Assembly: GCF_003130705.1 (NCBI RefSeq)
Contig: NZ_CP021356.1
Span: 235,210-299,209 of the forward strand
Length of the DNA: 64,000 bases
Direction: 5' to 3'
Source of the DNA: Rhodococcus oxybenzonivorans
GTDB taxonomy: Bacteria; Actinomycetota; Actinomycetes; Mycobacteriales; Mycobacteriaceae
Of the stretch, positions 30,207 through 57,114 are shown piece by piece. The position numbers and the translations under genes are program-made. Below the pieces are notes generated by a model. That model ran no database searches. It saw only the letters and a list, made by a program, of their open reading frames with translations, and was not told the origin of the DNA. Each line of letters opens with the position of its first letter. The first letter of the stretch is position 1.

Positions 30207-30240
30207 GGAGGAAGATCCGTTCGAAGAGGCTTGTGTGACA
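30207..30240 (-). promoter_or_regulatory. 34-bp motif, copy A
   Basis: On the plus strand: GGAGGAAGATCC, 11 variable bases, CTTGTGTGACA. In gene orientation TGTCACACAAG lies upstream and GGATCTTCC lies 29 bases before the ATG at 30177. The same blocks with the same 11-base gap occur at 37380, 48212 and 57081. Confidence 0.85.
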
Positions 30241-30356
30241 GACGTCCGCATCTTTTTCGTAAGGCTCCAGAGCCTTTGAGTCCCCTGCCACTCAGATTGC
30301 GAAGACTCGGAGCCGGGGTCAGACGAACGCCTGCGCAGCCTGGCCACGCGGCATAG

Positions 30357-30791
30357 ATGCACATATCCGGTCCATGCCCAGCGGCACTGCATTCCGCCGC
30401 CCAAGGCGTGGCAGCCTCGACGCTTGCAAGGGAGATGCGACGTCAGTAGTGGCAGCAGGCCACCCACACAGCCCCGAACGAACAGAAGAACACCGAACTG
30501 CGCGATACCGCGGCGCGGCCGGACGACTCGGCCGAGCACCGCGCCGCCTTCGCCCAAGACATGACTGCCGCCGGCGTTGACAGTGAAGCCGTCGGCGCCC
30601 GCATGTCCGCCGACCTCGACCAGGTCCCATCCCGCGGAGCCGTCCGGGCACCGAAGAAGGCACCAGTCCCCCGGAAGGGCAAGCCGTGGCAGTCCCACAC
30701 AAAGCGCAATGAAGGAGCTATCCGGTTCGGAGTCACGAAGCCCGGCCGGACACTCGACAAACGAAAAACGGAAGGGCATCCGACCAGGTGA
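30357..30791 (+). pseudogene. Gene of 144 codons with an in-frame amber codon at 30447
   Basis: One plus-strand frame is open from ATG 30357 to TGA 30791 except for a TAG at codon 31. After it the frame has strongly coding character (GC-rich third positions; NEQKNTELRDTAARPDD, then a basic tail with VRAPKKAPVPRKGKPW). The TAG sits in CGT CAG TAG TGG CAG CAG, so a single base change (CAG to TAG) would explain it. It is either a recent pseudogene, a sequencing error, or a suppressed amber. The product is unknown, small and basic at the C-terminus. Confidence 0.42.
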
Positions 30792-30884
30792 TGGCAACTC
30801 ACCCGCTAATGTGAATCAGCCAACGTGCGCTTGCATCCGTACCTGCACGGGGCGTGACCTGAACGACCAGCAGTAAGGCGGAGC

Positions 30885-33773
30885 ATGGGCCGGCGTGGAA
30901 GCGAGACCGAACAAACCGGAAATATCGGCGAAACCGCAGTAACGCTTGAGTTCCAGCAGCTGCAGTGGCACGTGGCGCCCAACCCAGCTGGTGAGGTCGG
31001 CACTGATCTGTTGCTTCAAGCGCGCGATGCGCGCCGGTTCGATCTCGGCGCAATTGTCGGTGCTCAGGTCAAGTCGGGCCCATCCTTCTTCGATACGCCA
31101 GAGAGCGATGACGCTGGGGACGTAGTCGGTTGGTGGTTCCGAGATCCGAACGGCGAGTATCTCAAATACTGGCGGGACCACACCGTGCCTCACATCGTGG
31201 TACTACACGATGCATCAGAAAAGAAGTCGTACTGGGTTCACGTAACGGCCGAAAGGATTAAATCGACGGGGAAAGGTGCGAAGATTCTTGTTCCCAAGGC
31301 TTCTGTCGTCGATGCGGAACATGCCGACGAACTTTTCAAGGTAGCTACCGTCGGCCGTGTCGGCCCCCGATGGGAGGGCAGCGCATGGGACGAAGGCGGG
31401 TCAATTCTCTCGCCCGACCAGCTCCGCTACGCCCTGCTGACGCCTCGGTTGATCGCTCCACATCCCAATCGACCAGTAGACGAATTACGTCCAGACCAGG
31501 CCATCGCACTACTGGTGAAGATGAGATTGCACGAGCTCGACCCGACACCACTCCATAAGAAGAAGGGTGCCGTACCGGATCTCGCGGAGTGCCGCACTTC
31601 GAAGGCCTGGCGATGGCAGTTCTACGCAGCTCTACACGATGTACTCATCGAGGAGAAGGGGCGTGAAGCGCTCGAAGCGCTGATCGAAACGGCGAGCAAG
31701 CCTCATGAGAGCGCCGCCGCCGCCGTCTTCGCATGCGCGATGCGAGTCGAGAGTCAGGATCCATTAGCCGGACTGGCGCTTGTGGATCGTGTGCTCACCG
31801 AGGATAAGTGCGATCCCATCGATCACGACTGGCTGCTTCTGCACAAATCGCGGTGCCTCGTCGAACTCGGCGAGTTGGAGGAGGCTCGGCGACTCGCCTT
31901 CGAAGTCCAGCGTCTGCGGACGATCGCTCCCCAGGATCCCACCGCCATGGCAATTGCCGGCTCTGGAGCCGACATCATCTTCACCGCAGGCAAATGGAGT
32001 AGCGATCTGTCTCAAGTGATCACAGGCCGAGACACGCTCGCAGCATGGTGGCGAGGTCAAGAAGTTGCATGGGGCCTTCAAAACCACTTCGACGATCACT
32101 TCAATGCATGGGCGCAGGGGTCAACTCCGACTGGCGATGCCGGTGATGACACCTGGCTGAAGCTGCGGACTGCGTCCTTGCTCGCCAGCACGGCAGCTGA
32201 TCATTCTTCGTGGCGACATACGTCGGGTCTCCGCGCACAACATATCCTTACTTTCACCGCGGGGGATCAGGACGACATCATCGGTGCCCTGACCCTTTTG
32301 CGCCGTGTCGGCGATAGCAAGACCCTGAAGAAGGCCTGCCATCGGTTGCTGCAATCTGGACCTGCCGCTGCCGTCCGGGCGGCCGCATCCCTCGTCAATC
32401 TCGAAGCCGCCTCGACAACGTCGATCCGTGCCGATCTCCAGTTGATTGCCGACGCCGCTGACGTCCTCGAAACCGAAACAGCCGATGTCCACGCCCGGTG
32501 GATCCTGTCGACGCTGGCCGACGTAGCTAAATTCAAGATGCGGTTCAAGCCCAACTTCTACGCGACAAACATGTTGCTGGAGACGCTTAGGGTCCTCGTG
32601 CAGGTGGTCTCGCCCACCGTGCGGCGAGAGCTAATTGACACCGTTCTGGCTCTCCCACCACAAACCAACAAGAGCACAGCACACGACTGGGCAAATGTGG
32701 TGGCACAAATCCCGGACGATGCATGGACCGACGACGACAGACGCGCAATATTCGAACGCCGCAGTTCAGTGGACGTCGACTCAGCGGAACATCCAGACGC
32801 CCCGGAAAATCCAGATGTCCCTGATTCTCGAGACGCCCCGGACCTTCGAAATGTATTCGATAGGGTCCTCGCAGATAGGGACCAGCAAAACCGCGAAGCG
32901 CTAGAAGCTCGTATCCGAGAAGGAGACTTGGGAGCGCTACGCGCCTTTGGCGACATCCGTGATCTGGACCAGACCACCGTACAAAAGCTGCTGGAAAACC
33001 TTTCTGCTCAACTCGATCAGCAGATCGAGGAACTCCAAGGCCTTGAGAGCCCTGGGCATGAAGACTTCTTCGCGACGAGCACCGACCACGAAGGTTACGT
33101 CGCAGGGACACTGGTCATGATCAATGCGTGGCACCCGTCGGCCGCTTGTTGGGCGCCTATCGTCCGGCTCCTCTCGCTCGATTGCCCATTCGCTGACCAC
33201 CTCCGAAATCCTCTGAAAAAGCTGCGCCAAGTCAGTAGACGCCTTCCCCCCGAAATTGCAGATACACTCATCGAGCCGCTTCGACTGCTGATGCTGAACG
33301 GTGTTCGCAACCAGTACTTCTTCGGCATCGAGGATGTCCGCGGCGAAGCTGCGGCCGCCCTGGTGGCGATCCGACCCAGTGCAATTTCTGATCAAGAGCT
33401 TTGGGATCTGATGACCGCGGACACTAGCGAACAACGTCAAGCCGCCGTACGCCTTATCGCTGCCCGAGGGGTCAGCCAAGGGTGCGACACGCTCTGGGCG
33501 ATGTCCAGAGACAGTGATCCGTGGGTGCGGGCTGCGATCGCCAATCAGGTCGCCGTCGCCGCGTCTCAGGCCGATACAGACGACCGCTTCTTGCCTCTCC
33601 TGATGCGTCTACTGTCGAGTGAAGGAACTCTGGTGGCGCGCCTGGTCGCTGTCGACCTCAAAAGACTTGCAAGGTCGGATAATGCGGACAAGCTTGCCGA
33701 AGTCCTCCGTGACAATATCTCCAGTGAAGTGCGCCGTGCGGTGGCTTCCTACGACAGAGCGATCACAGCCTAA
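30885..33773 (+). CDS. DUF4365-like nuclease domain fused to HEAT/TPR-like repeats, 962 aa
   Basis: The N-terminal 130 residues match the DUF4365 pattern, a PD-(D/E)XK-type fold: E16 in TGNIGETA, D41 in VGTDLLLQ and Q61-V-K63 in VGAQVKSG are the expected active-site positions. The following 800 residues are helical repeats of TPR/HEAT type (CRLVELGELEEARRLAFEVQRL; late repeats with VRGEAAAALVAIRP, RQAAVRLIAARG, WVRAAIANQVAVAA). Large nuclease-repeat proteins of this layout are typical of single-gene anti-phage systems, where the repeats sense and the nuclease cuts. The gene stands alone and is bracketed by a terminator hairpin downstream. Confidence 0.8.
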   Translation: MGRRGSETEQTGNIGETAVTLEFQQLQWHVAPNPAGEVGTDLLLQARDARRFDLGAIVGAQVKSGPSFFDTPESDDAGDVVGWWFRDPNGEYLKYWRDHTVPHIVVLHDASEKKSYWVHVTAERIKSTGKGAKILVPKASVVDAEHADELFKVATVGRVGPRWEGSAWDEGGSILSPDQLRYALLTPRLIAPHPNRPVDELRPDQAIALLVKMRLHELDPTPLHKKKGAVPDLAECRTSKAWRWQFYAALHDVLIEEKGREALEALIETASKPHESAAAAVFACAMRVESQDPLAGLALVDRVLTEDKCDPIDHDWLLLHKSRCLVELGELEEARRLAFEVQRLRTIAPQDPTAMAIAGSGADIIFTAGKWSSDLSQVITGRDTLAAWWRGQEVAWGLQNHFDDHFNAWAQGSTPTGDAGDDTWLKLRTASLLASTAADHSSWRHTSGLRAQHILTFTAGDQDDIIGALTLLRRVGDSKTLKKACHRLLQSGPAAAVRAAASLVNLEAASTTSIRADLQLIADAADVLETETADVHARWILSTLADVAKFKMRFKPNFYATNMLLETLRVLVQVVSPTVRRELIDTVLALPPQTNKSTAHDWANVVAQIPDDAWTDDDRRAIFERRSSVDVDSAEHPDAPENPDVPDSRDAPDLRNVFDRVLADRDQQNREALEARIREGDLGALRAFGDIRDLDQTTVQKLLENLSAQLDQQIEELQGLESPGHEDFFATSTDHEGYVAGTLVMINAWHPSAACWAPIVRLLSLDCPFADHLRNPLKKLRQVSRRLPPEIADTLIEPLRLLMLNGVRNQYFFGIEDVRGEAAAALVAIRPSAISDQELWDLMTADTSEQRQAAVRLIAARGVSQGCDTLWAMSRDSDPWVRAAIANQVAVAASQADTDDRFLPLLMRLLSSEGTLVARLVAVDLKRLARSDNADKLAEVLRDNISSEVRRAVASYDRAITA

Positions 33774-34798: not shown

Positions 34799-37156
34799 TC
34801 AGCCCGACACCTGGATGGGTTTGCGAATCGATACGTAGGAACTGTCAGGTAAGGCAAGATCGCCGAACTCATCGGTGTCGCTGCGCCAGGTCAGTGACAG
34901 CAATGAGTCTTCGATGATGTCCGGTTCGGGATCGGTGTCTACGACGACCCACTCGTCAATGTCCTCCATCAGCAACAGGTCCCCGAGTGCTACATCGGCA
35001 GCGCGAACATCGCGGACCGGCCCGTACTGGTCCTCGTAGGTGTCGGGTGAATCGTCCGGTATGTCGAAGACCTCGGCTCCGCCGTCCGCCGGTATCTCTG
35101 GTTCGGTTGCTGCTGCTGGTTCTTTGACCAGGGCTAGTCGAGCGCGTGAGGACTCCCCTCGCGCAGCGGAGGATTCACCGAGTTGTGGAGCAGAGAGCTG
35201 ATCGAGGAACGAGGCGGCATCGGTGGCACCGGCGGCCGTCGGGGTGCGGTAGTCGTCGAGCTCTACCGCCGCTTCGTTGGTGGGCTCGGCGCGGCCCCCG
35301 AGTAGCCCGAGGAGCGCAGTCGGTGACGCGAGACGACGATCGGTTTCGTGGGTCATCTTCGCTCTTCTGAGTACCGGATCGAGGTCGGGTCGGTCGCTGG
35401 CCAGTACCCATTCGGCTTCGATGTAGTCGAAGTATGTCAGGGGCGCCGGTTCTGACGTGTCGTCGGTGGCGTCGATGTCCGGAAGTTCGTCCGGTGGGAC
35501 GATCAGCAATCGTGGATGGCGTGTTATCGGGGGGCGGAGGGTGTCGAGCAGATCGGACTCGAAGGTGCCGGCGTGCGTCTTGCGTGGGTCGGGTACGCGG
35601 TAGCACTGGATCTCGATGGGCTGATAGTTGTCGGTGACGGTGGTGCCGCGGCCGCGGCACTTGCGGGGCACGCTGGTACCGATCGTCGGTGATTGCCACA
35701 TCATGAGCGCCCCTTGTGGTGAGAGCCGGCCCATGGAGATGCGCATGGCGAAGTTGTCACGCATGTCGCCGAGGAAGTACTGCGCGTCGGGACGCTGAGT
35801 TCCGAAGACTAGATGCACTCGCGAGGTTCGGGCCTTGCGTGCCATCGACGCGAGCATGCTGAGCACCGGTGGCTGTCGGGCGCCGCCTTTCGGTTTGGCC
35901 CTGGAGTACCAATCTTCGACGTTGCCGCGGAACTCCGCCCATTCGTCGAGAAAGACGAGTACTGGTTCGAAGTCCGCTTCTGTCGCCTCGCCGGTAACGA
36001 TCTTCTGGTATCGGAACTCCATGAGATCGCGGGCGCGGTGGACCAACGCCACTTGCTGCTCGATGGTTGTAGCGACGACTTGTACGTTGGGCCAGTCCTG
36101 GAATCCCAGGAATTCGACGTACTTGCCGTCGAGGACCCAGATCGGCCATCCACGTCGCGAGAAGTTGACCAACAGATTGTGTGCGGTCACGGTCTTACCG
36201 CTTCCGGGTGGGCCGATCAGCATCAGGTTCGGGTCGATCGCCGGCCGCCACACAACCTCGTTGCCGTCTTCGTCGATTCCGTAGGGAATTTCCACCGAGT
36301 CGTAACTGGCCAGGAGATCGGCACCGGGGTCGAGGTCCGGTGCCGGCAACCAGACGCTGTCCGGGAATGCTGTGCGTTGCTCGAATCGAACCCAATCCGT
36401 TTCGAGGTTCCACCGTGCTCTCCAGCGACCGGGCAACGTCGCGCTCATTCCTCGTTCGACGCGGGTCCGGTAGCCATCCGATTCCAGTTTCGGACCAAGT
36501 TCGTGACGTACTTCCATTGAGGTCACTTCGCCGGTTTCGGCGGCGACGTCGATCGCGGTTACGGTCGCGGTCGGGCCCAACAGTTGGGCGATGATCCGCT
36601 TCGCGCGCACAACCTGGTCGCTGTCGGAGACTTCTCGTTCCGGCTCGGCAGCGGGCGTGAAGATCAGGCGCCGGCGGGCGGGGTCGTGCTTGTCGAGTTC
36701 GAAGAAACCCCACCCTTGATCTTCGAAGACCCCGCAGATATCAGCGAGCCACGTCTCGTCATTCAGTGCCTGTGTCGAGTCGTAGTGCACGGTGAGTTTC
36801 CCCGGAAGTCCCGGCCATCCACGGCTCCATTTCGACGTCGACAGCACCGCCCGGGTGGCCTCCGGCAGCCCCACGATCGGGCACAGCCTATCGATCACCT
36901 CGTCGATGTCGACATCGCGAAGCTGCTTACGTTTGCCGGCTACTCCGGCGTAGACGGCAGCGATCGACAAGCCCGCCGCGGCGGGCATCGCGAGGGCGCT
37001 GTATCCGAACAGCGGAGCGGCGGCGCTGGCACCGACCGCGGTGGTACCCAAGCAGAAACTGTCGCGAAGCCAGGTGTGCGGCCGCGGCGGCAAGGAACTG
37101 ATTCGGGGAGAGCGTGCGAACCGCGCACCACTTTGCTGCGGAGGTGTGGTTGTCAT
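34799..37156 (-). CDS. FtsK/SpoIIIE-type DNA translocase (TraB/coupling-protein-like)
   Basis: The 785 residues include two or more N-terminal membrane helices (about 38-70), a middle part, and an FtsK/HerA-type ATPase with Walker A GPPGSGKT near residue 314 and Walker B VLVFLDEWAEF near residue 398. An RxxxD-like region (GTQRPDAQYFLGDMRDNFAMRISMG) follows. The C-terminal 250 residues are acidic. In actinobacterial transfer systems such proteins act as the coupling protein or as a TraB-like pump for double-stranded DNA. Its ATG overlaps the stop of a 55-codon upstream ORF by four bases. Confidence 0.88.
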   Translation of the reverse strand: MTTTPPQQSGARFARSPRISSLPPRPHTWLRDSFCLGTTAVGASAAAPLFGYSALAMPAAAGLSIAAVYAGVAGKRKQLRDVDIDEVIDRLCPIVGLPEATRAVLSTSKWSRGWPGLPGKLTVHYDSTQALNDETWLADICGVFEDQGWGFFELDKHDPARRRLIFTPAAEPEREVSDSDQVVRAKRIIAQLLGPTATVTAIDVAAETGEVTSMEVRHELGPKLESDGYRTRVERGMSATLPGRWRARWNLETDWVRFEQRTAFPDSVWLPAPDLDPGADLLASYDSVEIPYGIDEDGNEVVWRPAIDPNLMLIGPPGSGKTVTAHNLLVNFSRRGWPIWVLDGKYVEFLGFQDWPNVQVVATTIEQQVALVHRARDLMEFRYQKIVTGEATEADFEPVLVFLDEWAEFRGNVEDWYSRAKPKGGARQPPVLSMLASMARKARTSRVHLVFGTQRPDAQYFLGDMRDNFAMRISMGRLSPQGALMMWQSPTIGTSVPRKCRGRGTTVTDNYQPIEIQCYRVPDPRKTHAGTFESDLLDTLRPPITRHPRLLIVPPDELPDIDATDDTSEPAPLTYFDYIEAEWVLASDRPDLDPVLRRAKMTHETDRRLASPTALLGLLGGRAEPTNEAAVELDDYRTPTAAGATDAASFLDQLSAPQLGESSAARGESSRARLALVKEPAAATEPEIPADGGAEVFDIPDDSPDTYEDQYGPVRDVRAADVALGDLLLMEDIDEWVVVDTDPEPDIIEDSLLSLTWRSDTDEFGDLALPDSSYVSIRKPIQVSG

Positions 37157-37320
37157 CGCCAGGCCTCGCCTTCACCAGTCGGCGAGGAGAGCACGAGCGT
37201 GCCGGCACTGCGATTGCCTTGCGCTCGCCGATTCGTACTTCCTGACTCGGCGTATCCAACTGCCGATCCGTGCCGCGGCCACCTTGCGTTCGCAGTTCGC
37301 TGATCAGTTCGCATTTTCAC
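37153..37320 (-). CDS. Short coupled ORF upstream of the FtsK gene, 55 aa
   Basis: GTG 37320 (or the ATG two codons later) follows AGGAGGG, a very strong ribosome site, and the ORF ends in an ATGA overlap with the FtsK gene. The peptide (begins VKMRTDQRTANARWPRHG) is basic and has no recognisable fold. It may be a true small protein or mainly a translational coupling device. The 34-bp motif copy B lies 60 bases upstream. Confidence 0.5.
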   Translation of the reverse strand: MKMRTDQRTANARWPRHGSAVGYAESGSTNRRAQGNRSAGTLVLSSPTGEGEAWR

Positions 37321-37379: not shown

Positions 37380-37413
37380 GGAGGAAGATCCCGGTAGGGG
37401 AGCTTGTGTGACA
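37380..37413 (-). promoter_or_regulatory. 34-bp motif, copy B
   Basis: GGAGGAAGATCC, 11 bases, CTTGTGTGACA on the plus strand. In gene orientation it precedes the FtsK operon, 60 bases before the short coupled ORF. Both conserved blocks are identical to copy A; the spacer differs. Confidence 0.88.
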
Positions 37414-39111: not shown

Positions 39112-40767
39112 TCAGGCCGCCAACTTCTTCATGTGCCCACGCACGGCCGGCACGTATGCCTGGGTCTGGCCGAATGGCGGAATCCCGCCGTAGGTGACGA
39201 CGGCACCCTCCCCGCCGTTGTAAGCGGCGATGATCAGATCGGTGAAGTCGCCCTTCACGGCTCCACTGTCGTGATGCGGTCGAAGGTAGTCGGCGATGTG
39301 GCAGAGATAGCGCCCTTCCGAGGCGATCGCGTCATACGGATTGAACGGGTCGGCAGCGTTAGGCGGTTCCGCTTTTCCGCTTCGATCTAGACCGGAATCC
39401 GTACCGAAAGCCTTCCAGGTCTCCGGCATGAACTGACTCATTCCTTCGGCGCCGCCCTGGTTTACGCCATCGCCCTTGCTGACGGCCTTTTCGTTGAACC
39501 CGGACTCTTGTTGAACGATGCCGGCAACCAGAACCGGGCTCACCTCGGGGCACAGAGACCCAGCGGCCGAGACTGCGTTGGTGTATTGCGGCGGGATGCT
39601 GCCAGGGGCGAACTCGGTCTGATCACCGTCTTCTGGCGGGCACGGCCCGGTGGTGGTCGTTGCGCCCGGAGCGCTGCCGTAGTGGGAGTCGGTGGTCGGC
39701 ATGCCGCCGCCCTTGAGTGTGACGTGTACGTGGTCGAAGTGGTTTGCGGTGTAGCCGTGACGGTCCTCCATCAGTGACCAGTCACCGGTGCCATCCCAGT
39801 AACGCTGTTGCCAGATCAAGTACTCGACGTTGAGGGCCACTTTGTTCTGTTGGAGGTACAGGGCGAGCTTGTCGCCGAGCGCCTTCCCTTGGGCGCTCGC
39901 GGAGTCGGGAATCATGATGTCGACCGCGCGGCCGTCGGGGTGGTCCTGGGCGACGTCGCCGGTGGGGCGCCATCCGCCGATGGTTGTGATCTCGGGGAAG
40001 GCCGCCGCGATTGTGCGCATGACGCGGATGGAGTCGACCTGCATGTGCGCTTCGCTGCCTTTGTCGGCGGGCAGCGGTGGTAGATCGCCACCGGTGGAAT
40101 CGGTATGTGCGACCAGCTCTGCTGGTCCTTCATTGGGCGAGATGGTTCCTTGTTGTTTGAGCCACGGAATGGGATCTACTCCCCCGCCCAGTGACCAGCC
40201 TCCGGGGTAGATGCCGAAGTGAAGATGCGGTCCACTCGACTGTCCTTCGCTGCCCACCTTGCCGATCAGTTGGCCCGCTTTGACCTTGTCTCCGGTGTGG
40301 ACGAGGACCCCGGACGCCTGCATGTGCCCGTACAGGGATTCGACGATCTGGCCCTCGATGGTGTGCCGGATCCGAATCCAGTGTCCGTAGCCGGCGGCGG
40401 GCTCTGCGGCGATGACTTCGCCGTCACCGGCGGCGTAGAACGGGGTGTCCAGTGGTGCTGCGTAGTCCTGGCCGTCGTGCATGCCTCCCTCGCGCATACC
40501 GAAGGGCGAGCTGATTGTGTAGGTGCCTTCGGCCATCGGGACCGCGAGGGATCCGGGCTTGATTCCCATGAGGCTGCCGCCCCCGGCGTCTGGCACAGGT
40601 TGACCGCAGTTCGTGTCACTACCGGTCGTCGCGAGGATGACCAGTATCGGAGCCATCATGATGACCATGGCGAAGACGGGTATGCCGGCGAGCAGCCACC
40701 ACCACCACTTTTTCGAGCTGCCTTCCTGTGTGTCCGGGGTCGACGGTGGTGTGTCGAGGAGCGTCAT
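39112..40767 (-). CDS. Bifunctional wall hydrolase of the T4SS: M23 peptidase + lytic transglycosylase, 551 aa
   Basis: One N-terminal membrane helix (WWWWLLAGIPVFAMVIMMAP) is followed by an M23 LytM domain with its zinc ligands (H97 and D101 in HDGQD, then H181 in HLHFG). Next is a middle domain with DHPDGRAVDIMIPD, a VanY/ARB-07466-like pattern with possible zinc ligands. A C-terminal SLT lytic transglycosylase domain has the catalytic glutamate in VQQESGFNE, plus GMSQFMPETW and AAYNGG. It is the VirB1-like protein that opens the wall for the transfer channel. The start overlaps the VirB6-like stop by one base. Confidence 0.92.
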   Translation of the reverse strand: MTLLDTPPSTPDTQEGSSKKWWWWLLAGIPVFAMVIMMAPILVILATTGSDTNCGQPVPDAGGGSLMGIKPGSLAVPMAEGTYTISSPFGMREGGMHDGQDYAAPLDTPFYAAGDGEVIAAEPAAGYGHWIRIRHTIEGQIVESLYGHMQASGVLVHTGDKVKAGQLIGKVGSEGQSSGPHLHFGIYPGGWSLGGGVDPIPWLKQQGTISPNEGPAELVAHTDSTGGDLPPLPADKGSEAHMQVDSIRVMRTIAAAFPEITTIGGWRPTGDVAQDHPDGRAVDIMIPDSASAQGKALGDKLALYLQQNKVALNVEYLIWQQRYWDGTGDWSLMEDRHGYTANHFDHVHVTLKGGGMPTTDSHYGSAPGATTTTGPCPPEDGDQTEFAPGSIPPQYTNAVSAAGSLCPEVSPVLVAGIVQQESGFNEKAVSKGDGVNQGGAEGMSQFMPETWKAFGTDSGLDRSGKAEPPNAADPFNPYDAIASEGRYLCHIADYLRPHHDSGAVKGDFTDLIIAAYNGGEGAVVTYGGIPPFGQTQAYVPAVRGHMKKLAA

Positions 40768-43049
40768 CAGCGAGCTCGGTGGGCCAGTGCGCTGGGCTTG
40801 ACTACCGGCGCGGATCCGGACTGCGCGGCGGCAGCGAGCAGCTGAGCAGTCTTCGACGCTGAACCGTTGGGGATCCCTGTTTCAGGAGAGGCGGGTCTGG
40901 CTGGTCGCAGGGGGGTGCGGCTCGGTGTCGTCGGCAACATCACCGGCGCCCCAGACGTGGTGGTGAATTCGCGGAATCGGCGACCGTCAGGGCTACTAGT
41001 TGTCGTGGCCGAGGCGCGGACCTGGCCAGGATTGGCGACCGGCAATGACGGGGCGACCCCGATGGGGTGCTTGATGCCGGCCTTGTCCGACACCGCCGTT
41101 TTCGACAGTCGACTCCGGACAGCGTCGGCAGCAGCGTTCGTAGCGGCGGTTCCACGACTGGTCTGGGCACCGACCGTGCCTGAGGTGGACTTCGGGTAGC
41201 TGTCGGGATCGGCGATCGAGTCGACCTTGTTCTTCGCTCGCTTCGCCGTCGAGGAGAGGACCCGTCCGGCAACCAGCACTGCAGCTGCCCCGCCGGTTGC
41301 TGCGGTCGACGTGGCTCCGGCTGCGACTTTTCCGGTCGTTGCCGCGGCAGTGCCGGACTTCTTCGCTAGTGCTCCTGCCCCCTTCACCGCGGCCTTTCCG
41401 CCCTGGTACATGTGGCGTCCGTTGGCGGCCATCGCAGCGATGTCGCGCGCTGTGGTGGGCGTTGAGCGACTAATGGCGGTCGGTGCGGCGTTGGGCCGTT
41501 TAGCCAGAATTGTTGCCAGGTTGTCCGACATTCGCTTCATTCCCTTTACCGCTCGGCGGAAGAGGAGAAGTGCGGTGACCAGGAAGATGTCGACGAAGAA
41601 CACCGTGCGGATCAGGTTCGATTCGTCTGCAGCGAAGAGATCCTCGACGACCATGACGTATCCCACGAGGAAGACGATGGCGAAGATCATCTGCAGCAAC
41701 GCCATTGCGACGTTGGCAATGGTCCGCCAAAACTGCCCGCGCATCGAGGGGGCGATGGCGAGGACAACTCCTGGTATCGATTTGATGGCATTGCCGATCG
41801 AGACACCTGCGGCGATGATCAATCGGCCGGCGAGGTAGATCGCGAAGGCCATGAGGAGTGCGCCGGCGAAGATCAGGAAAAACAGGCCCATTGCTTGTCC
41901 GGGACCGGGGTTGTCGGCATAGGCCTTCATCGGCCCGTCCTCCCCCTCACATTTGGCGATGGCATCTTTGACGCGGTCTTCCGGTTTCGCGTCGGGATTG
42001 ATCAGGTCAAGGGCTACGCCTGCCCCAGGGGCGATCTCGGAGACGACGTCCTGCGCTTTGGCCGCGAGTCCAGGCTCCTTTGGCTTCGCGAGGTACGCGG
42101 CGTCGAACTCTTTGACGCATTTCCCGTTGTTTTCCGGGGCATCGAGAACGACTCCGAAGTTGATCAGTTGCGTTGGTTGGCGGATGAACGTGTCGATGAG
42201 TTTCGATTCGATTGTCTCGATCTCTGTCTGCGGGTTTCCGCTGGTATCACCGCCGTTCGCGAGCCCTGAGGCGACTTCCAGGCCGGCATCTCGCGCCGAC
42301 AGCACCAGTCCGTCGTCACCGAGGACTCGATCGACCGGGTTCGAGAGAACGCCCACGGCCGCGGCCGCGATGACGCAGGACATGAGGAGCTCGTAGATTC
42401 CGGTGGAGAATCGGCCGCGGATGATCCAGATGGCGACGCTGAGTCCGGCGACTGTGAGCATCAGCGGGGTCAGCGCGAACTGGTCGGTGATGGAGGTGAC
42501 CGAGTCGGCGATGGTGCGCACGGGAGTGAGGATCAGGTCGAGCCATTCGAACGAGAGCACCCAGGTGATGAACCAGATGGCCGTTGCCATCAGGAAGCGG
42601 AAGACCTCGAATTCGAGGGTGATGAAGTACGCCCAGATCATGCGCCAGCCGCCGCCCACCGAGGCGTTGCCTTTGTCGATGGACAGGAAGTAGCCCCACG
42701 CGTCGATGCCGTGCGAGTCTTTCAGATTCATCCAGGCGAAGAACGGGCTCGCACCGCCGCCGCCGGCGGGATCGGCGAGAGCCGGGGTGGCCACGATCAT
42801 CAAGATGGCGCCGGCCGCGTGCCAGCCGGCGATGAGGCGGATGAGTAGCCGGCTCCACCAGCGTGCCCACAGCCAGCGGGTTACTGGGCGGGTCAGGTGT
42901 ATCAGTGCGGTCAGCCAGGATTGCGGAATCCATGCGGTGACAAGCCACAGCAGTGAGCGTTTGGCCGCGGCGCGGACACTGAAGTACTCCCGGGGTTCGG
43001 GGGCGCCGACCACCTCCCGTTCACGGGAGGACGCCGCGGCCGCGGTCAT
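40767..43049 (-). CDS. VirB6/TrbL-like polytopic membrane protein, 760 aa
   Basis: There is an N-terminal cytoplasmic tail and a signal-like helix ending in ALADPAGGG. At least six further membrane helices lie between about residues 130-240 and 395-500, then a C-terminal 250-residue Ala/Thr/Ser/Lys-rich tail. This layout (multi-helix core, low-complexity tail) is that of VirB6/TrbL-type channel proteins in actinobacterial T4SS clusters. It sits between the VirB4-like ATPase and the wall hydrolase, as expected. Confidence 0.85.
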   Translation of the reverse strand: MTAAAASSREREVVGAPEPREYFSVRAAAKRSLLWLVTAWIPQSWLTALIHLTRPVTRWLWARWWSRLLIRLIAGWHAAGAILMIVATPALADPAGGGGASPFFAWMNLKDSHGIDAWGYFLSIDKGNASVGGGWRMIWAYFITLEFEVFRFLMATAIWFITWVLSFEWLDLILTPVRTIADSVTSITDQFALTPLMLTVAGLSVAIWIIRGRFSTGIYELLMSCVIAAAAVGVLSNPVDRVLGDDGLVLSARDAGLEVASGLANGGDTSGNPQTEIETIESKLIDTFIRQPTQLINFGVVLDAPENNGKCVKEFDAAYLAKPKEPGLAAKAQDVVSEIAPGAGVALDLINPDAKPEDRVKDAIAKCEGEDGPMKAYADNPGPGQAMGLFFLIFAGALLMAFAIYLAGRLIIAAGVSIGNAIKSIPGVVLAIAPSMRGQFWRTIANVAMALLQMIFAIVFLVGYVMVVEDLFAADESNLIRTVFFVDIFLVTALLLFRRAVKGMKRMSDNLATILAKRPNAAPTAISRSTPTTARDIAAMAANGRHMYQGGKAAVKGAGALAKKSGTAAATTGKVAAGATSTAATGGAAAVLVAGRVLSSTAKRAKNKVDSIADPDSYPKSTSGTVGAQTSRGTAATNAAADAVRSRLSKTAVSDKAGIKHPIGVAPSLPVANPGQVRASATTTSSPDGRRFREFTTTSGAPVMLPTTPSRTPLRPARPASPETGIPNGSASKTAQLLAAAAQSGSAPVVKPSALAHRAR

Positions 43050-45556: not shown

Positions 45557-45570
45557 AGTGGCGGCTCTTT

Positions 45571-46191
45571 CTACTCGGAGGTGCCTGCAGCAGCCAGAGC
45601 GAGGAGTTCCTTGACGCTCGATCGGCCGGCGCGATGGGTGGGCCCGCTTGCCGGTGGGGGCACCGGAGCGGAGGTCTGCGGTCGTGGTGCGACAGGTTCC
45701 GCCGATGCGGTTTCGGTGACCTCGGCGGTGGCGATGTGCACGGCCTGCGGGACGACCATGGCGCTGAGTTCGGCGGCCGTGGGGTCGGCAGTGATGTAGC
45801 CACTCGGACGCACGAGGTGGGGTGGCCGGATGGCCACCCGCCGGCCGTTGATCTGGATCTTGGCACCGGCCGGCGCGAAGGCTACGGCGCAGATTCCCTG
45901 TGCCACTGAGGCGGGGCTCCGGCCGGCAAACCGGAGTTTGCCGACGACAAAGACGGTGCCCAGTGACCAGAAGGCGAAGAAGCCGACGTTCCAGGAAATG
46001 CTGTCCCGAAGCCACAGGGGATGCAGGAGCCACAGGAGCCCACCGACGATTGCGCCGCTCACGGCCTGCGGAACGGTATAGGGACCGAACGGCAGCTTCT
46101 TTCCGTCAGGTGTACGCCCGATCAGCTGCGGCACCTTGCGAGCGCGGGTGAAGTTCTTGATGACTTCCCCGGTGGTGCGCTCGTCGCTCAT
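45571..46191 (-). CDS. PrgI/VirB3-like membrane protein, 206 aa
   Basis: It has a cytoplasmic N-terminus (FTRARKVPQLIGRTPDGKKLPFGPYTVPQAV) and two adjacent membrane helices (about 42-58 and 65-85). A beta-rich segment (KIQINGRRVAIRPPHLV) and a Pro/Ala-rich tail follow. Position directly before the VirB4-like gene and the two-helix hairpin make it the PrgI/VirB3 equivalent of Gram-positive T4SS. It overlaps the stop of a 26-codon leader ORF. Confidence 0.8.
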   Translation of the reverse strand: MSDERTTGEVIKNFTRARKVPQLIGRTPDGKKLPFGPYTVPQAVSGAIVGGLLWLLHPLWLRDSISWNVGFFAFWSLGTVFVVGKLRFAGRSPASVAQGICAVAFAPAGAKIQINGRRVAIRPPHLVRPSGYITADPTAAELSAMVVPQAVHIATAEVTETASAEPVAPRPQTSAPVPPPASGPTHRAGRSSVKELLALAAAGTSE

Positions 46192-46268
46192 CGCAGCACC
46201 GGCCCACTCGTGACTTCATGCCGGCGAAGCCGCGAACCCGCTTCCGCAGTGCTAGCTACATCGAACAT
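46188..46268 (-). CDS. 26-residue leader ORF coupled to the PrgI-like gene
   Basis: ATG 46268 is preceded by AAGGAGG, one of the best ribosome sites in the window. The ORF (begins MFDVASTAEAGSRLRRHEV) ends with an ATGA overlap at the PrgI start. It has no domain. As with the short ORF before the FtsK gene, a coupled leader seems likely. Confidence 0.45.
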   Translation of the reverse strand: MFDVASTAEAGSRLRRHEVTSGPVLR

Positions 46269-46349
46269 TGGAGTCCTCCTTGTAGAGGTCGGTCGCGCAA
46301 TAAGGTCATTGCCGACAAGCGTCTTTCAGCCGGTGCGAACGAGCGGAGA

Positions 46350-46676
46350 TCACACGCGAAGGTCTAGGCCGGAACTCGGTTCGGCCACGAGGTGCACCGC
46401 GGCGGGAGCGCTCTCCAACTCCTCACCTGTCGAGTCCTTCAGGACGTCCATGTTGAAGACGACCCACAGTGCTGCACCGCCGATGAGCGCGGATGTGATG
46501 AGTCGGGCAACTGTGAATGAGGCCATCAGATTCTTGAGAAGGAAGAACAAAACGAGGCAGCCGGCGGCCGACTGGAGGAGCAGCTTGCCGTCGCTGGTGA
46601 ACTCCTGCGCCTTGTCGAAAAGCCCTACGGCGAGGACCGCGTTGTTGGGATCGGTGGCTGCGAGCGCAATGGACAT
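46350..46676 (-). CDS. VirB2-like small membrane protein, 108 aa
   Basis: Two to three membrane helices are visible (about 35-50, 53-72, with a hydrophobic N-terminus around LAVGLFD). The short cytoplasmic tail and the position two genes before the VirB4-like ATPase fit a VirB2/TrbC-type pilin or scaffold. A GGAAGG ribosome site lies before ATG 46676. The evidence is mainly context and topology. Confidence 0.65.
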   Translation of the reverse strand: MSIALAATDPNNAVLAVGLFDKAQEFTSDGKLLLQSAAGCLVLFFLLKNLMASFTVARLITSALIGGAALWVVFNMDVLKDSTGEELESAPAAVHLVAEPSSGLDLRV

Positions 46677-46682
46677 GATGGG

Positions 46683-47891
46683 TTACCTTCCGGATGAATG
46701 AGGATCGGTTCCTGACGGGGAAAACAACGGCACCTCGCCGGCAGTCGGCACTGAAAGTGCGGGAGTCTGCCCTGATTCAGACGATGCGGGAACCTGACCT
46801 GAATCAGACGATGCGGACTCCGGGGCACCCGTACTTGGTGTGATCGAGCTCGGTGCGGTCGTTGAGGAGGATGGTGTTCGGGGTGCCGCCGGCGGGTACA
46901 ACGGCGTTGCGTCAATTGCGCTGACCTCCCACCGGCCGCCGCGGGAGGTCATCGTCAGCGCGTACTGCCCACTAACCGAATCGACCTCGGTGACTTTCTG
47001 CGCTGCCGTCACCAGGAGGCGCACAACATCACCGTCAGGCAGCGGTGCCGATGCACTGGCAGCACTCAGGTCTTCCGACGAATAGACATCGGTGATTGCC
47101 ACGCTGCGATACGGCGCCGGAACAATCGGTGCGATCGAAACCCCCGGCGTGAGATAGCGGGCTACTTCCCCGTTGCCGGTCAACATCGCGGACAGGAACT
47201 CGTGCGCGGACGTGGCGATGGGATGGTTGGCGACCCGGTACTTGTAGCCGAGCTTGACGTCGATCGAGGTCGACGGGCCAGCTACTTCGGCGGGGAGTGC
47301 GGCGGCCCTCACGCCCGCTTCGGTGACCACAACCGGCACCTGAAAGTAGCGACGAACTGTGGCCGCATTCGCATCCGAGGCGGCTCGAACTGACACCGAG
47401 ACCGTCACCGCGTATGTCCGTGACTTCTGCTCGTAGTCGATCGACGCGACGGCCGGATCAGTCGCGGCAAACAACGGCGCGCTCGGAAGGCTCGGTTTTC
47501 CCGAGACGAAATGATCGAGTTCTTGTTCATTCCCACGCGATGCCTGGAGCCAGGCAACGACGAACTGCCGAGCAAGATCTTCGGCTTTCGCTTGACCGAT
47601 TGTGTCGACGTCTGCGGTGTCTTCGGTGGCGTTGTCGGTGAGGCTCCGGGTGGGCGAGGATCCGAAGACGACGAGGATCAGGGCAACTATTCCGGCGCCG
47701 AGCGCGGCGACGATTCCTGCCTTGAGAAGTCGGGTGGTCCACACCTGCCGAAGGCCCCACTGTGCGCGCTCCGCGCGCGCCAACTCCTCGGCTTCGTCGA
47801 CAACGGAGTCGACGCTATTTTCAGTCGCGGGATCGGTCTTGCTCTTGGGGCTGCGGCCGAAGTTGTTGATTTTCGCGAGGTCGATTTTCAT
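46683..47891 (-). CDS. TcpC/VirB8-like conjugation protein, 402 aa
   Basis: A cytoplasmic N-terminus (about 60 residues) and one membrane helix (LLKAGIVAALGAGIVALILVVF) are followed by an extracellular part. That part carries two NTF2-like domains (about 110-220 and 225-340, with RQFVVAWLQ and AHEFLSAMLTG), as in TcpC of Gram-positive conjugation systems. A Ser/Thr/Pro tail follows. ATG 47891 overlaps the stop of the upstream gene by four bases and fits the domain start. Confidence 0.85.
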   Translation of the reverse strand: MKIDLAKINNFGRSPKSKTDPATENSVDSVVDEAEELARAERAQWGLRQVWTTRLLKAGIVAALGAGIVALILVVFGSSPTRSLTDNATEDTADVDTIGQAKAEDLARQFVVAWLQASRGNEQELDHFVSGKPSLPSAPLFAATDPAVASIDYEQKSRTYAVTVSVSVRAASDANAATVRRYFQVPVVVTEAGVRAAALPAEVAGPSTSIDVKLGYKYRVANHPIATSAHEFLSAMLTGNGEVARYLTPGVSIAPIVPAPYRSVAITDVYSSEDLSAASASAPLPDGDVVRLLVTAAQKVTEVDSVSGQYALTMTSRGGRWEVSAIDATPLYPPAAPRTPSSSTTAPSSITPSTGAPESASSDSGQVPASSESGQTPALSVPTAGEVPLFSPSGTDPHSSGR

Positions 47892-48151
47892 CGGATGCCG
47901 GCTTCTGTCGTCGGGTCGGACGTTCTGCAATCGGGGACGGAATCCGCGATGTCGAATGCGGACGCCCGCGACAGCGCGGCGCGCGCGGCTGGCGCTTCGA
48001 CGAACACCAACAGCCACAGCGAAGTGCTCGCCTCTTCATCGAGAGGGTTCACCGCCAGGGCTGCCGCGACTCGGCGGATCTCCTCGGTGACGGCGTGCAC
48101 GTAGCCGAGATCGTGCAGCTGGGCTTGCAGCGAGTTGTCGAGCTCGTGCAT
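47888..48151 (-). CDS. Small hypothetical protein, 87 aa, first gene of the T4SS operon
   Basis: ATG 48151 is preceded by AGGAGG. It is a helical protein (LDNSLQAQLHDLGYVHAVTEEIRRVAAALAVNP) with no membrane helix. It is the first gene after motif copy C and is coupled to the TcpC-like gene. An accessory or regulatory role in transfer is likely, but nothing more can be read. Confidence 0.7.
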   Translation of the reverse strand: MHELDNSLQAQLHDLGYVHAVTEEIRRVAAALAVNPLDEEASTSLWLLVFVEAPAARAALSRASAFDIADSVPDCRTSDPTTEAGIR

Positions 48152-48211: not shown

Positions 48212-48245
48212 TGGAGGAAGATCCGGGTCCGGGGGCTTGAGTGAC
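48212..48245 (-). promoter_or_regulatory. 34-bp motif, copy C
   Basis: GGAGGAAGATCC, 11 bases, CTTGAGTGACA on the plus strand; one base differs from copies A and B. In gene orientation it lies 61 bases before the first T4SS gene. On the other side the sigma-like gene starts 239 bp away. The rest of 48152-48483 has no supported gene. Confidence 0.86.
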
Positions 48246-48483
48246 ATCGCTCGCGAAACTTTTTGAAGTTTTTTCTGCGTCACCAAGGGGTTATTGCCTC
48301 AGCCGAAAGAGCGCACGTGAGGGGCACTCCCTGCCCACCGCCGCACAGCCGGAACCTTCACGGCAACAACGCCCTGGCAATAACGGCACCCCTCCGGCAA
48401 CAACAAACACGCAGGTCAGAGGCAATATCCGGTTGCTGTACTGGGTGCGAGACCACCTCGCCCGCGCCCAGAGGAGACCGATC

Positions 48484-49326
48484 GTGGAAACGTCCACCCA
48501 CGCACCCACCGCCACCACAGCGTCATCGGCAACGCCGGTTCGCAGCACCGCGCAGAGCAATCTGTACAGCCGCTTGAACACCGAGTGGATGTACCTCTGC
48601 GCTCGCCCCGCAGCCGCCGCCGAAGTCTTGACGTGGTCGGTGAGCCAGGACGCGCTCCGGGAGGTGGCGAATCTCAACGATCTCGCCGCGGCGCACCGCC
48701 GAGATCGTGATGGTGTGCTTCTGGCGCTGCTGACACTGCATCAGGAAGGAAGCTCCCTTGCCGGGCGAGCGCTACTGCAGTTGATGCTCGGCAAGCTCAT
48801 CTCCCTGACGCGCCACGCACGGGTCAGTGGGCACGATCGGTATCACGCGTGCGATGAGAGAGCGGCCTCCACTGTGGCCACATTCATGTCTCTGATCGCC
48901 ACCTACAGGCCGTCCGGTGCGAACGTCTACGCGGCGCTCTTCCTGCACACGCTGAAGAAGATCACGCGCGAGGAAACCTTCGCCCAGGAGATCCCCGCCT
49001 CCGATGTCATGGACGAGTCCGACAGTGCTGAGAACGATCCGGAATCGGATATCTCTGCTCCGGTGCTGCTCTCCTGGGCGCTCGAAAAGAAGGTCATCAA
49101 CGACCTCGATCGCACCCTGATTCAGCGGGCATACCTCGAGCAGACCGATTGCGACCTGGCCGTGATTGCCGCGGAGGTTGGGATGACTCCGGCAGCGCTT
49201 CGCCAGCGGCTCTACCGCGCGGTCACACGCATTCGTAAAAGTGTCGTCGCCTCCAACCAGCCGACTTCTCGACCCCGGTTTGCACGTGGTCGTCGTCGGG
49301 CTGCAACGACTACTGCGGCGATCTGA
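48484..49326 (+). CDS. Sigma-70-like factor, 280 aa
   Basis: GTG 48484 has GAGGAG seven bases upstream. The central part (about 75-165) is helical and resembles sigma region 2 (LLQLMLGKLISLTRHAR...DERAASTVATFMSLIATYR). The C-terminus has a region-4-like HTH (LDRTLIQRAYLEQTDCDLAVIAAEVGMTPAALRQRLYRAVTRIRK). It is followed by a basic tail. The gene is divergent from the T4SS operon and lies next to motif copy C, so it is the best candidate for the protein that reads that motif. The ATG of the next gene overlaps its stop. Confidence 0.78.
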   Translation: METSTHAPTATTASSATPVRSTAQSNLYSRLNTEWMYLCARPAAAAEVLTWSVSQDALREVANLNDLAAAHRRDRDGVLLALLTLHQEGSSLAGRALLQLMLGKLISLTRHARVSGHDRYHACDERAASTVATFMSLIATYRPSGANVYAALFLHTLKKITREETFAQEIPASDVMDESDSAENDPESDISAPVLLSWALEKKVINDLDRTLIQRAYLEQTDCDLAVIAAEVGMTPAALRQRLYRAVTRIRKSVVASNQPTSRPRFARGRRRAATTTAAI

Positions 49327-49589
49327 TGACCCGTAGTTTCGCGCCTCTGTTCACCGTCATGGTCTTCATCGCGGCGGCGTTTCTTCTGACCGAAACGTCC
49401 TTGCTCCTCGAAGCGACGCGAGGATTCGATGCTGCACTCACCCACCCCACGATCGCTCGTCCCGGACTGCTCGCCGAGTCCTCGCATGTGATGAGCAGAG
49501 TCGCTCTCACTGTCGCTGACTTTCTGCCCCGCGACATCACCACTCATATCGACAGCGGTCGGGTCCTCGTGCCGGCGCTGTATCGCTGA
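49326..49589 (+). CDS. Small membrane or secreted protein, 87 aa
   Basis: The N-terminal hydrophobic helix (FAPLFTVMVFIAAAFLL) could be a signal peptide or anchor. The rest is moderately hydrophobic without a motif. It is coupled to the sigma-like gene (TGATG) and sits 15 bp before the cutinase gene, so all three are one transcript. The function is unknown. Confidence 0.65.
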   Translation: MTRSFAPLFTVMVFIAAAFLLTETSLLLEATRGFDAALTHPTIARPGLLAESSHVMSRVALTVADFLPRDITTHIDSGRVLVPALYR

Positions 49590-49604: not shown

Positions 49605-51617
49605 ATGACGAACCTCTACACGCCAACATCTAAGGACGGTCGCGCCAACTACAGCGGCCGGGTTGCCCTGCTCGTCGCCTCCTTGCTCGCTGCACTCCTC
49701 TCCTCGCTCATCGCGGTTGTGTCGCCAAATCAGGCCGGGGCGGCGCCAGCATCCTCGGGCTGCCCGGCAGTGGAAGTGGTGATGATGCCGGGAACGTTCG
49801 AAACGGACTCGACCGCTAATCCTGACGTCGCGAAGGGTCTGCTCAAGCAGGTCACCGATCCTCTTTCCCAGCTGTTCGGCAGCTCCATCACGATCACCTA
49901 TCCGGCGTACGAAGCGTCCGCCTTCAACAAGGGCAAGACCTATGGCACCAGTAAGGCATCTGGCATCGCGGCCGGCGCGCGCGTGATGCAGACTCGTGCA
50001 ACGCAATGCCCGAACACTCTCTTCGCACTCGGCGGCTACAGCCAGGGTGCGGACGTGGCCGGCGACTTGGCATGGTTGATCGGACACGACAAGGGACCGA
50101 TCCCGGCAGAGAAGTTGATCGCTGTCGGTCTTGTCGCCGACCCACGGCAGAGTTCGAATGGCGACAACACTCTCGTCGGTCCTCCCGTCGACGGTGTTGG
50201 GATCGCGGGGGCCAGGCCGGGCGGCTTCGGAAAGACAGCTGCAGTCACGCGTTCGTACTGCGCCCCCGACGACCTCTACTGCTCGACCAACGCCAGCAAG
50301 GATGGATTGCTCGCAGGACTTGGGCGAGTGCTTGCGCAGCCTCCGACTGCTTCCGGTCCGCAGCAGAGCGATGGATCTCAGCCCACCACCGCGGGTCTGC
50401 AGAACGCCTTGGTGTCCGACTACTCGAAGGTCAATCTTCCGGGATTGGCCGGCAACATCGAGACCCTGCAGCAGCAGCTGCAGTCCGGCGCTCCGGACCT
50501 GGAGAGCATGGAATCTGCAGCGACAGATGTAGCCAACACCCTTGTTCCGGTGGCCGATACGACCAGCTGGGTAACCCAGAATCCGGCCGTGGAACAGACG
50601 CTCAAGACTGCGGACGCTTCGACTCCCGAATACACCGCCGGCCAGATCATCGATAAGGTCAAAGGCATCGACCTGAGGAGTGCATTTCAGGCCGCGGACA
50701 CCATCGCGCGGACGGTTCAGAATGCCTCCACGCCGGATCAGGTGCAGCAGCTGCAGACATCGGTGGACACCTTGTCCACTCAGGTCTCCCCCTTGGCCGC
50801 CACTCCGGCTGATGGTCTGTCACTCGCGGCGGACGCACTCTCGATCATCAAGCCGAGCGTGCTCATCAACCAGATCACGCAGATCGGGACGAACGCATTC
50901 GACCTCGCCAACAACATCCCTGCAGTCCTCGACATCTTGTTCAACCGGATCCCGCACATTGTTCTCGATCCGGGTCTCGATCCGATGGCCAAGGTCAAGG
51001 CTGTCCACGTCGAGTTCGACCGCATTAACCTCCTGTTCGAGCCACTCATCAAGCTCGCCGCCGGACTCGACTACAAGACGGCTGCGGCCCTAATCGCGAT
51101 GATTCCCGACCCGTCCGGCGCCGCACAGATCATCTCGATGATCGTCGGCCTCGTCGGGAATCTCGACATCATCGGTCTGGCCAACACCGCCGGCGAACTC
51201 CAAAAGCAGCTCTGGCACGCCATCGAGACCGGCGACATCATCGGAGCCGGCCTCGGCGCACTCCCCCACATCCTCGACTTCGCGAAGATCGCGGTGGGCA
51301 CACTCAGCGGTGGCCAGAAGACCGAGGCGTCCAAGCTCGGTTCGGTGTCTGCGTCTACGACGACCGGACAGCAGATCACTCAGCAGTCACAGGCTGGGGA
51401 CCTTGGAGGCCTCGCCTCGAGCCTCACCACCTTGGCAGCCTCTGACGGTGCAGACGCCCTTTCCCAGATCGGTGCCGAAGGGCTCAAGTTCGCCTCATTC
51501 ATCGGGTCCGGAACTCACCAGAACTACGGGGAGCTCGTCGTCGATGCATCAGGCACTACCGCCCTGCAGGACATGACCAACCACTTCCGCGATCCGATCG
51601 CCAAGGCCGTCGCGTAA
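49605..51617 (+). CDS. Secreted cutinase-family protein with a large helical insertion, 670 aa
   Basis: The N-terminal signal region ends near AGAAPAS. The cutinase alpha/beta-hydrolase core follows, with nucleophile S146 in GGYSQGAD, the acid in CAPDDLYC (about 222) and paired cysteines. The catalytic histidine is probably H637 in GTHQNYGEL, near the C-terminus. About 410 residues of mostly helical, low-complexity sequence lie between the acid and the histidine. Cutinase-like enzymes of actinobacteria attack surface lipids such as mycolyl esters. Being on the plasmid beside the T4SS, it may modify the envelope of the donor or recipient. Confidence 0.85.
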   Translation: MTNLYTPTSKDGRANYSGRVALLVASLLAALLSSLIAVVSPNQAGAAPASSGCPAVEVVMMPGTFETDSTANPDVAKGLLKQVTDPLSQLFGSSITITYPAYEASAFNKGKTYGTSKASGIAAGARVMQTRATQCPNTLFALGGYSQGADVAGDLAWLIGHDKGPIPAEKLIAVGLVADPRQSSNGDNTLVGPPVDGVGIAGARPGGFGKTAAVTRSYCAPDDLYCSTNASKDGLLAGLGRVLAQPPTASGPQQSDGSQPTTAGLQNALVSDYSKVNLPGLAGNIETLQQQLQSGAPDLESMESAATDVANTLVPVADTTSWVTQNPAVEQTLKTADASTPEYTAGQIIDKVKGIDLRSAFQAADTIARTVQNASTPDQVQQLQTSVDTLSTQVSPLAATPADGLSLAADALSIIKPSVLINQITQIGTNAFDLANNIPAVLDILFNRIPHIVLDPGLDPMAKVKAVHVEFDRINLLFEPLIKLAAGLDYKTAAALIAMIPDPSGAAQIISMIVGLVGNLDIIGLANTAGELQKQLWHAIETGDIIGAGLGALPHILDFAKIAVGTLSGGQKTEASKLGSVSASTTTGQQITQQSQAGDLGGLASSLTTLAASDGADALSQIGAEGLKFASFIGSGTHQNYGELVVDASGTTALQDMTNHFRDPIAKAVA

Positions 51618-54133: not shown

Positions 54134-54140
54134 AGGCCCT

Positions 54141-54985: not shown

Positions 54986-55046
54986 GAATCCTGCTAGCTT
55001 CACTGGGAACCACTCGTCACAACCAAAGTCCAATGGGAGAACTGCC

Positions 55047-56752: not shown

Positions 56753-56860
56753 TGACGATGGGGTAGGGCGACGGGGGAGTAGAACCTCGCCGCCTACCTC
56801 TCAGTCGATTCCCGACAGCTCATCGGTGGTGCACGCGAAGGCACTTCGGGTGTCTTTGAA

Positions 56861-56911
56861 CCCACTCCCCACCCCACTCCCCACCCCACTCCCCACCGCC
56901 GTGGGGAGTGG
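56861..56911. repeat. Three tandem 12-bp C-rich repeats and an 11-bp hairpin
   Basis: CCCACTCCCCAC occurs three times head to tail (56861-56896). The last copy forms a perfect hairpin with GTGGGGAGTGG (56901-56911, loop CGCC). Two more partial copies lie at 56940-56959. Between the partition genes and the replication gene, iterons of a replication origin or a terminator are both possible. The remaining 56753-57222 has no supported gene. Confidence 0.7.
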
Positions 56912-57080
56912 ATTTTACCGTTTGATCAGGTATTTCTTCCCACTCCCCCCACTCCCCACCGATTGGCCCCGCAGGTCACACGTAGGGGTAGTTGTTCATC
57001 TGAAACCGCGGTCGGGCGAGTTTGGTGAAACAGTCCATGCTCCGCGGCATGATGCGGCGACGAAGATCTTGTTTCCCATC

Positions 57081-57114
57081 TGTCACACAGCGTTGGGCCG
57101 AAGGATCTTCCTCT
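57081..57114 (+). promoter_or_regulatory. 34-bp motif, copy D
   Basis: TGTCACACAGC, 11 bases, GGATCTTCCTC: the reverse complement of copies A to C, with two changes in the first block and one at the last base of the 34-bp unit. Here the downstream gene is the RHH-like gene at 57223, on the plus strand. Orientation relative to the gene is therefore the same in all four copies. Confidence 0.82.

Follow-up and report, generated by a model that had tools for sequence, protein, structure and literature searches.

What turns on conjugation by a type IV secretion system (T4SS) in actinobacteria? To our knowledge little is known on this point, and the question is raised by a 64,000-nucleotide stretch of Rhodococcus oxybenzonivorans DNA (NZ_CP021356.1, positions 235,210 to 299,209; hereafter the window, with positions counted from its first letter), in which a 34-bp motif of two conserved blocks recurs upstream of transfer genes. 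An earlier note on this DNA had proposed that the two blocks are either a dimer operator or the -35 and -10 elements of an alternative sigma factor. Comparison of sequences across genomes and plasmids, together with a structural model, makes it highly probable that the copies are promoters, read by an extracytoplasmic function (ECF)-like sigma factor encoded by the plasmid itself, which would switch on the conjugation programme.

The motif and the genes it precedes

On the gene-sense strand, the motif reads TGTCAC[A/T]CA, 13 variable bases and GGATCTTCCTC; the earlier spelling was its reverse complement. Four copies are found in the window at up to three mismatches, with a chance expectation of 0.00 in 100 dinucleotide shuffles: 30207-30240 (+, 0 mismatches), 37380-37413 (+, 0), 48213-48246 (+, 1) and 57081-57114 (-, 3), where the strands are those of matches to the earlier spelling and the gene-sense strand is the opposite one. 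The positions first reported for three copies (30207, 37380 and 57081) are correct, and the third copy begins at 48213, not at 48212. Distances to the start codon of 29, 59, 61 and 108 bp bear out the claim that all copies share one orientation and lie 30-110 bp before a start.

Promoter 1 (30207..30240, -), with -35 TGTCACACA at 30240-30232 and -10-like GGATCTTCCTCC at 30218-30207, lies 29 bp before the ATG at 30177 of a 119-aa small membrane protein (29818..30177, -); this protein has hydrophobic stretches, no Pfam match and the same length as the product of pRHL2 40163-40522, which stands at a matching site. Promoter 2 (37380..37413, -; -35 37413-37405, -10-like 37391-37380) lies 59 bp before a small open reading frame (ORF), a putative gene of 55 aa with a GTG start (37153..37320, -), whose stop overlaps the ATG of an FtsK/SpoIIIE-type ATPase, the probable coupling protein (34799..37156, -; PF01580, 1.3e-9). 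Promoter 3 (48213..48246, -; -35 TGTCACTCA at 48246-48238, -10-like 48224-48213) lies 61 bp before ORF1 (87 aa, 47888..48151, -) of the T4SS operon. This operon (39112..48017, -), recognized by Pfam, encodes a TcpC/VirB8-like protein (46683-48017), a VirB4-type ATPase (43046-46033), a 760-aa protein without Pfam match (40767-43049) and an M23/SLT peptidoglycan hydrolase (39112-40767), all on the minus strand. Promoter 4 (57081..57114, +), with -35 TGTCACACA at 57081-57089 and -10-like GGATCTTCCTCT at 57103-57114, lies 108 bp before the ATG at 57223 of an 85-aa protein (57223..57480, +).

The whole genome (8.0 Mb, four contigs) holds seven copies at up to three mismatches, all between 219 and 292 kb on the plasmid-like contig C3, whose right-hand end is the window. 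The three additional copies (219172, 221971 and 231076) precede a WhiB gene (154 bp from its start), an operon encoding a RAMP-domain protein (41 bp) and an alpha/beta hydrolase region. Aligned with one another, these seven non-orthologous copies agree completely in 8 columns of the first block and 11 of the second (19 in all), and the spacer is unconserved. Among 22 sites with distinct spacers, some of them orthologous to one another, A+T content is 54-67% in the bins 11-20 bp upstream of the first block, as against 29-47% in the bins on either side (-70 to -21 and -10 to -1). By eye, and uncounted, a third short block is seen just 3' of the -10, TAGAAG-like at several Rhodococcus sites, TGTGGYRG-like in pXCEL01 and GTGA-like in pCPRO01 and pKRAD01.

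Written as a promoter, the motif is TGTCAC[A/T]-N16-GATC. Both its -35 and its spacing equal those of the ECF41 sigma factors, whose reported promoter is TGTCACA-n16-CGTC, the spacer measuring 16 +/- 1 (Wecke et al. 2012, PMC3426412). The -10 is GATC in all seven genome copies, not CGTC.

Beyond this genome, the sense pattern at up to one mismatch gave 25 matches in 6 of 251 family genomes. Of these, 22 lie on Rhodococcus plasmid-type contigs and three are lone one-mismatch copies, one of them on contig C1 of the window's own genome. Within the genus, 7 of 28 genomes have matches (five to eight copies in six of them, one in the seventh), and the exact pattern detects a single further contig, from R. 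koreensis, with four copies, in a wider collection that may conceal the window's own record or close kin of it. The gene of the sigma-like protein described below is present in all seven motif-bearing genomes of the genus and, as a fragment, in an eighth that is 74% complete; none of the 20 genus genomes lacking it has the motif. Such co-occurrence is expected for genes that share one plasmid.

A divergent sigma-like gene and probable promoters on other plasmids

Divergently from the T4SS operon, positions 48484..49326 (+) encode a 280-aa protein, the proposed reader of the promoters, for whose identity as a sigma factor the sequence support is moderate. Residues 78-257 match TIGR02937 (6.6e-5) and ShbA (9.5e-4), both under the cut-off, and the family profile matches sigma4 of the ECF factor SigL at E 1.9e-4. 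It is by profile only that a sigma factor is recovered from PDB, the single-sequence search having returned none and one unrelated match (E 0.84). For an AlphaFold2 model of mean pLDDT 74, the best 50 of 219 Foldseek matches (E up to 10) are all described as sigma factors or as complexes containing one, the best E among the matches listed being 4.4e-3 and none reaching 0.001. The predicted sigma4 part superposes on 3vep (2.6 A over 70 residues), which together with the profile match to SigL points to an ECF sigma4 domain, and the predicted sigma2 part on 4lup (3.4 A over 91 residues); a low-confidence linker at 167-188 separates the two. The fused C-terminal regulatory domain of ECF41 factors, which is SnoaL-like, is absent: about 23 residues follow the last helix, mostly modelled with low confidence and without a Pfam match. 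With this domain lacking and a -10 other than CGTC, membership of ECF41 was rejected, and the likeness is one of form.

By tblastn, this protein has homologues in 43 plasmid records (28 from Rhodococcus). On all 12 plasmids opened, a set selected by presence of the sigma gene, the homologue and a T4SS operon are transcribed divergently, at identities to the window protein reaching down to 24% over the whole alignment, and on ten of the 12 a related promoter precedes that operon. A matrix trained on the 12 sites of the window group only was used to score this intergenic region in ten other plasmids, with 300 shuffles of each for comparison. In eight of the ten, the top match stands 36-61 bp ahead of the T4SS operon, with p values of 0.0033 (pREL1, pFiD188), 0.0066 (pKRAD01), 0.010 (pCPRO01), 0.017 (pXCEL01), 0.050 (pBD2), 0.063 (pR09L01) and 0.27 (Curtobacterium pCFF113); on CP070614, where the first T4SS gene is unannotated, p is 0.0033.

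The second block varies from plasmid to plasmid, in what we call dialects. It is GGATCTTCC in the window group, pREL1 and pN9T4-1, GGATCTACC in pFiD188, GATCTACC in CP070614, where the spacer has one base fewer, GAACCTCC or GGACCTCC in pBD2 and pR09L01, GCACCTTCC or close forms in pCPRO01 and pXCEL01, and GCACCTACC or close forms in pKRAD01. Nearly all dialects retain GTCAC in the first block. In whole-plasmid scans, 10 of 12 records carry 3 to 12 sites of their own dialect, and a reversed control pattern gives 0 or 1 matches per strand; many of the dialect matches (on pXCEL01, 11 of the 12) depart from the general pattern by one mismatch. On the latter plasmid, distances to the next coding sequence on the same strand are 35, 36, 37, 29, 33, 34, 66, 54, 42, 6, 39 and 616 bp: ten of the 12 sites fall 29-66 bp before genes, within a 25-70 bp band whose background is 2.6% (binomial ~1e-14), the outliers being 14786 (6 bp) and 24239 (an annotated start follows at 616 bp). 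In one genome (G010), two contigs that each carry a sigma gene of their own differ in dialect: the exact pattern gives seven sites on C2, every one with TTCC, and three on C1, every one with TACC. Beyond site 162622 of pKRAD01, ~450 bp pass before an annotated start, and further sites are 16012 and 99424 on pKRAD01 and 137921 on pN9T4-1. Other one-mismatch matches, some of which look unrelated, include three on pN9T4-1, four on CP070614, one on pBD2 and two on pRHL2 (204110 and 319766).

The same kinds of gene recur behind these sites. Nine of the ten plasmids with a T4SS-operon site also have one before the FtsK-like operon, CP070614 being a doubtful case. Homologues of the 1780-aa protein encoded 3' of the 85-aa gene are preceded by a site, with a small gene between, on pRHL2, pREL1, pFiD188, CP070614, pBD2, pR09L01 and pCPRO01, and probably also on pXCEL01, whose annotation shows no such small gene. 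The WhiB gene has a site on the window's own contig, pRHL2, pXCEL01 and pKRAD01, and the pREL1 WhiB gene (85327) has none nearby in the whole-plasmid scans. Sites precede the RAMP-domain operon on the own contig, pRHL2 and pREL1, and, on pXCEL01 and pCPRO01, both an operon whose last gene is PAPS-reductase-like and short genes that precede Tad-type pilus and prepilin peptidase genes. Concerning the RAMP-domain operon itself, on the own contig it lies at about 219-222 kb (L045:3948-6630; PF03787, 1.8e-5), and similar operons are seen on pRHL2 and pREL1. The search of this and related plasmids reveals copies that are not scattered in coding DNA and a motif that is kept, in diverged form, on 10 of the 12 related plasmids opened. 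In these sequence comparisons, both the sigma-type -35/-10 of the earlier note and its regulon, uniting the small membrane protein, the FtsK operon, the T4SS operon and the gene at 57223, hold good and extend to other actinobacterial plasmids.

Candidate readers of the promoters

A dimer operator, bound by a plasmid repressor or activator at promoters read by the housekeeping sigma, would account for two blocks at a fixed distance of about two turns of the helix, and the downstream TAGAAG of Rhodococcus resembles the housekeeping -10. The motif has neither dyad nor direct repeat (3 pairs match, and permuting the letters within each block gives 3.7 on average) and is therefore not a dimer operator in the sense first proposed. 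All sites placed against genes have a single orientation, and the third block is GTGR-like, not TANNNT, in pXCEL01, pCPRO01 and pKRAD01, so that we consider an operator improbable. WhiB7 activates transcription with the housekeeping sigma at A/T-rich -35 regions, and the plasmid WhiB, itself a target on the window's contig, pRHL2, pXCEL01 and pKRAD01, could act likewise at the A/T-rich bins upstream of the -35. This is more improbable still: the WhiB gene does not adjoin the T4SS operon and is found on 9 of the 12 plasmids (the sigma gene, by which the set was chosen, on 12 of 12). It is missing from pBD2 and pR09L01, which carry 3 and 4 dialect sites, a count of plasmid genes only; the host chromosome may supply a WhiB. 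On the ground of these two plasmids, the plasmid WhiB was rejected as the reader.

For the 85-aa protein, the label of ribbon-helix-helix (RHH) regulator given in the earlier note is unconfirmed: it has no Pfam match at 0.001 and no NCBIfam match at 10. All 56 plasmid records with tblastn homologues, in a search of limited sensitivity for an 85-aa query, are from Rhodococcus, and the protein therefore looks like a target and not a general reader, a role for which it was rejected since sites occur on plasmids without such homologues. Small genes at the same position on pFiD188 and pCPRO01 may be diverged equivalents. A host ECF41-type sigma, with some other role for the plasmid protein, would explain the TGTCACA -35 and the shared spacing (PMC3426412), but not a -10 other than CGTC nor dialects that vary by plasmid and even between two contigs of one genome; judged by the promoter sequences, we regard it as very improbable and the least probable of these alternatives.

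With the other plasmid candidates, WhiB and the 85-aa protein, eliminated, which is more telling than co-occurrence, the plasmid sigma is the likeliest reader. Several points weigh against this assignment. The elimination covers plasmid-encoded readers, and host-encoded ones may remain. The matrix finds no motif in M. avium p1-JPH1 (p 0.31), and neither this plasmid nor Curtobacterium pCFF113 has a dialect site in the whole-plasmid scans. The motif is lacking at all 14 further paralogue loci of one family (f21), and the 8 of 21 distant sigma loci (L083-L103) at which it was read before the divergent gene (L083, 085, 088, 089, 091, 092, 093, 094) form a weak count, one by a stricter regular expression and seven by eye from a listing of GTCAC. 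Finally, C1 of genome G010 also holds one imperfect TTCC-type site, with two mismatches. Among the distant loci, the next gene is TcpC-like in L094 (3.6e-8) and doubtfully so in L083 (0.028). Genomes of f21 (L083-L103, L118-L131) have up to five sigma homologues each, with the motif at some loci only. An R-[QK]-R in the sigma4 helix is common to ten aligned sequences and absent from the M. avium sigma, which may fit the missing motif there, a single case.

In the scheme we favour, RNA polymerase carrying the plasmid sigma would recognize a promoter with TGTCAC[A/T]CA as its -35, followed by 13 variable bases and a -10 lying within GGATCTTCC; the DNA upstream of it tends to be A/T-rich. Once the sigma is made or released, presumably upon some inducing signal, its binding to the motif would jointly activate the T4SS operon and that of the FtsK-like coupling protein during mating, along with the genes of the small membrane protein, the 85-aa protein and the neighbouring 1780-aa protein. 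Outside the window, the WhiB regulator, the RAMP-domain operon and the alpha/beta hydrolase region would respond as well. We also lean, with confidence little better than even, towards a wider proposal, in which this family of mobile-element sigma factors is a dedicated switch of T4SS conjugation across Actinomycetota, keeping a GTCAC -35 and using lineage-specific -10 dialects, so that largely private sigma-promoter pairs let co-resident plasmids control transfer independently.

Neighbouring features and known systems

The sigma gene is followed by those of an 87-aa protein (49326..49589, +) and a cutinase-family protein (49605..51617, +; PF01083, 2.1e-14). Between promoter 3 and the sigma gene lie five GGCAA repeats, mostly GGCAAYAAC as elsewhere in Rhodococcus (48291..48430, +), a number equalled in only 0.5% of same-size window pieces. 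Five or six copies are present in 7 of 10 sigma/T4SS intergenic regions (the window, L072, L075, L076, L077, L078 and L080; 0.1-0.7% of same-size pieces have as many), one in pFiD188 and none in the M. avium and Curtobacterium regions. The repeats are a possible operator for the sigma gene and suggest that its control has a separate layer. The 1780-aa protein (57672..63014, +), possibly co-transcribed with the 85-aa gene, has a Tap-like C-terminal part (NCBIfam Tap 1.2e-41, under the cut-off) and matches no PDB chain at E 0.1; its tblastn relatives are named telomere-binding, CHC2 or toprim. Homologues also occur on the circular plasmids pXCEL01 and pCPRO01, hence it is probably more than a telomere protein.

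In the open-licence PMC literature, as represented by titles and the beginnings of abstracts and leaving aside subscription papers and preprints, no description appears of the motif or of this sigma as a regulator of conjugation. The analysis names a candidate master regulator with its promoter, lists its putative targets on plasmids of several genera and makes the testable prediction that sigma-promoter pairs are private. If it is right, one plasmid protein may turn on the whole conjugation programme. Likely members of that programme, flagged by the promoter, are the RAMP-domain operon, the genes before those of Tad pilus and prepilin peptidase, and the 1780-aa protein.

Tn916 is a conjugative element with a sigma-like regulator, orf7, and a TcpC-type transfer protein; the pairing is as here, a likeness by description with an element of another phylum. 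The best sequence match of the sigma4 part is SigL of Mycobacterium tuberculosis (3hug, 6dv9), over ~80 residues only, and the plasmid protein adds an N-terminal helical extension. SigN of the Bacillus subtilis plasmid pBS32 is likewise plasmid-encoded, in a host of another phylum, and is reported for cell death after DNA damage (PMC6751061). As for the ECF41 factors, they share with the plasmid system a promoter upstream of their targets, but these are described as neighbouring COE genes (PMC3426412), whereas the targets here are conjugation genes.

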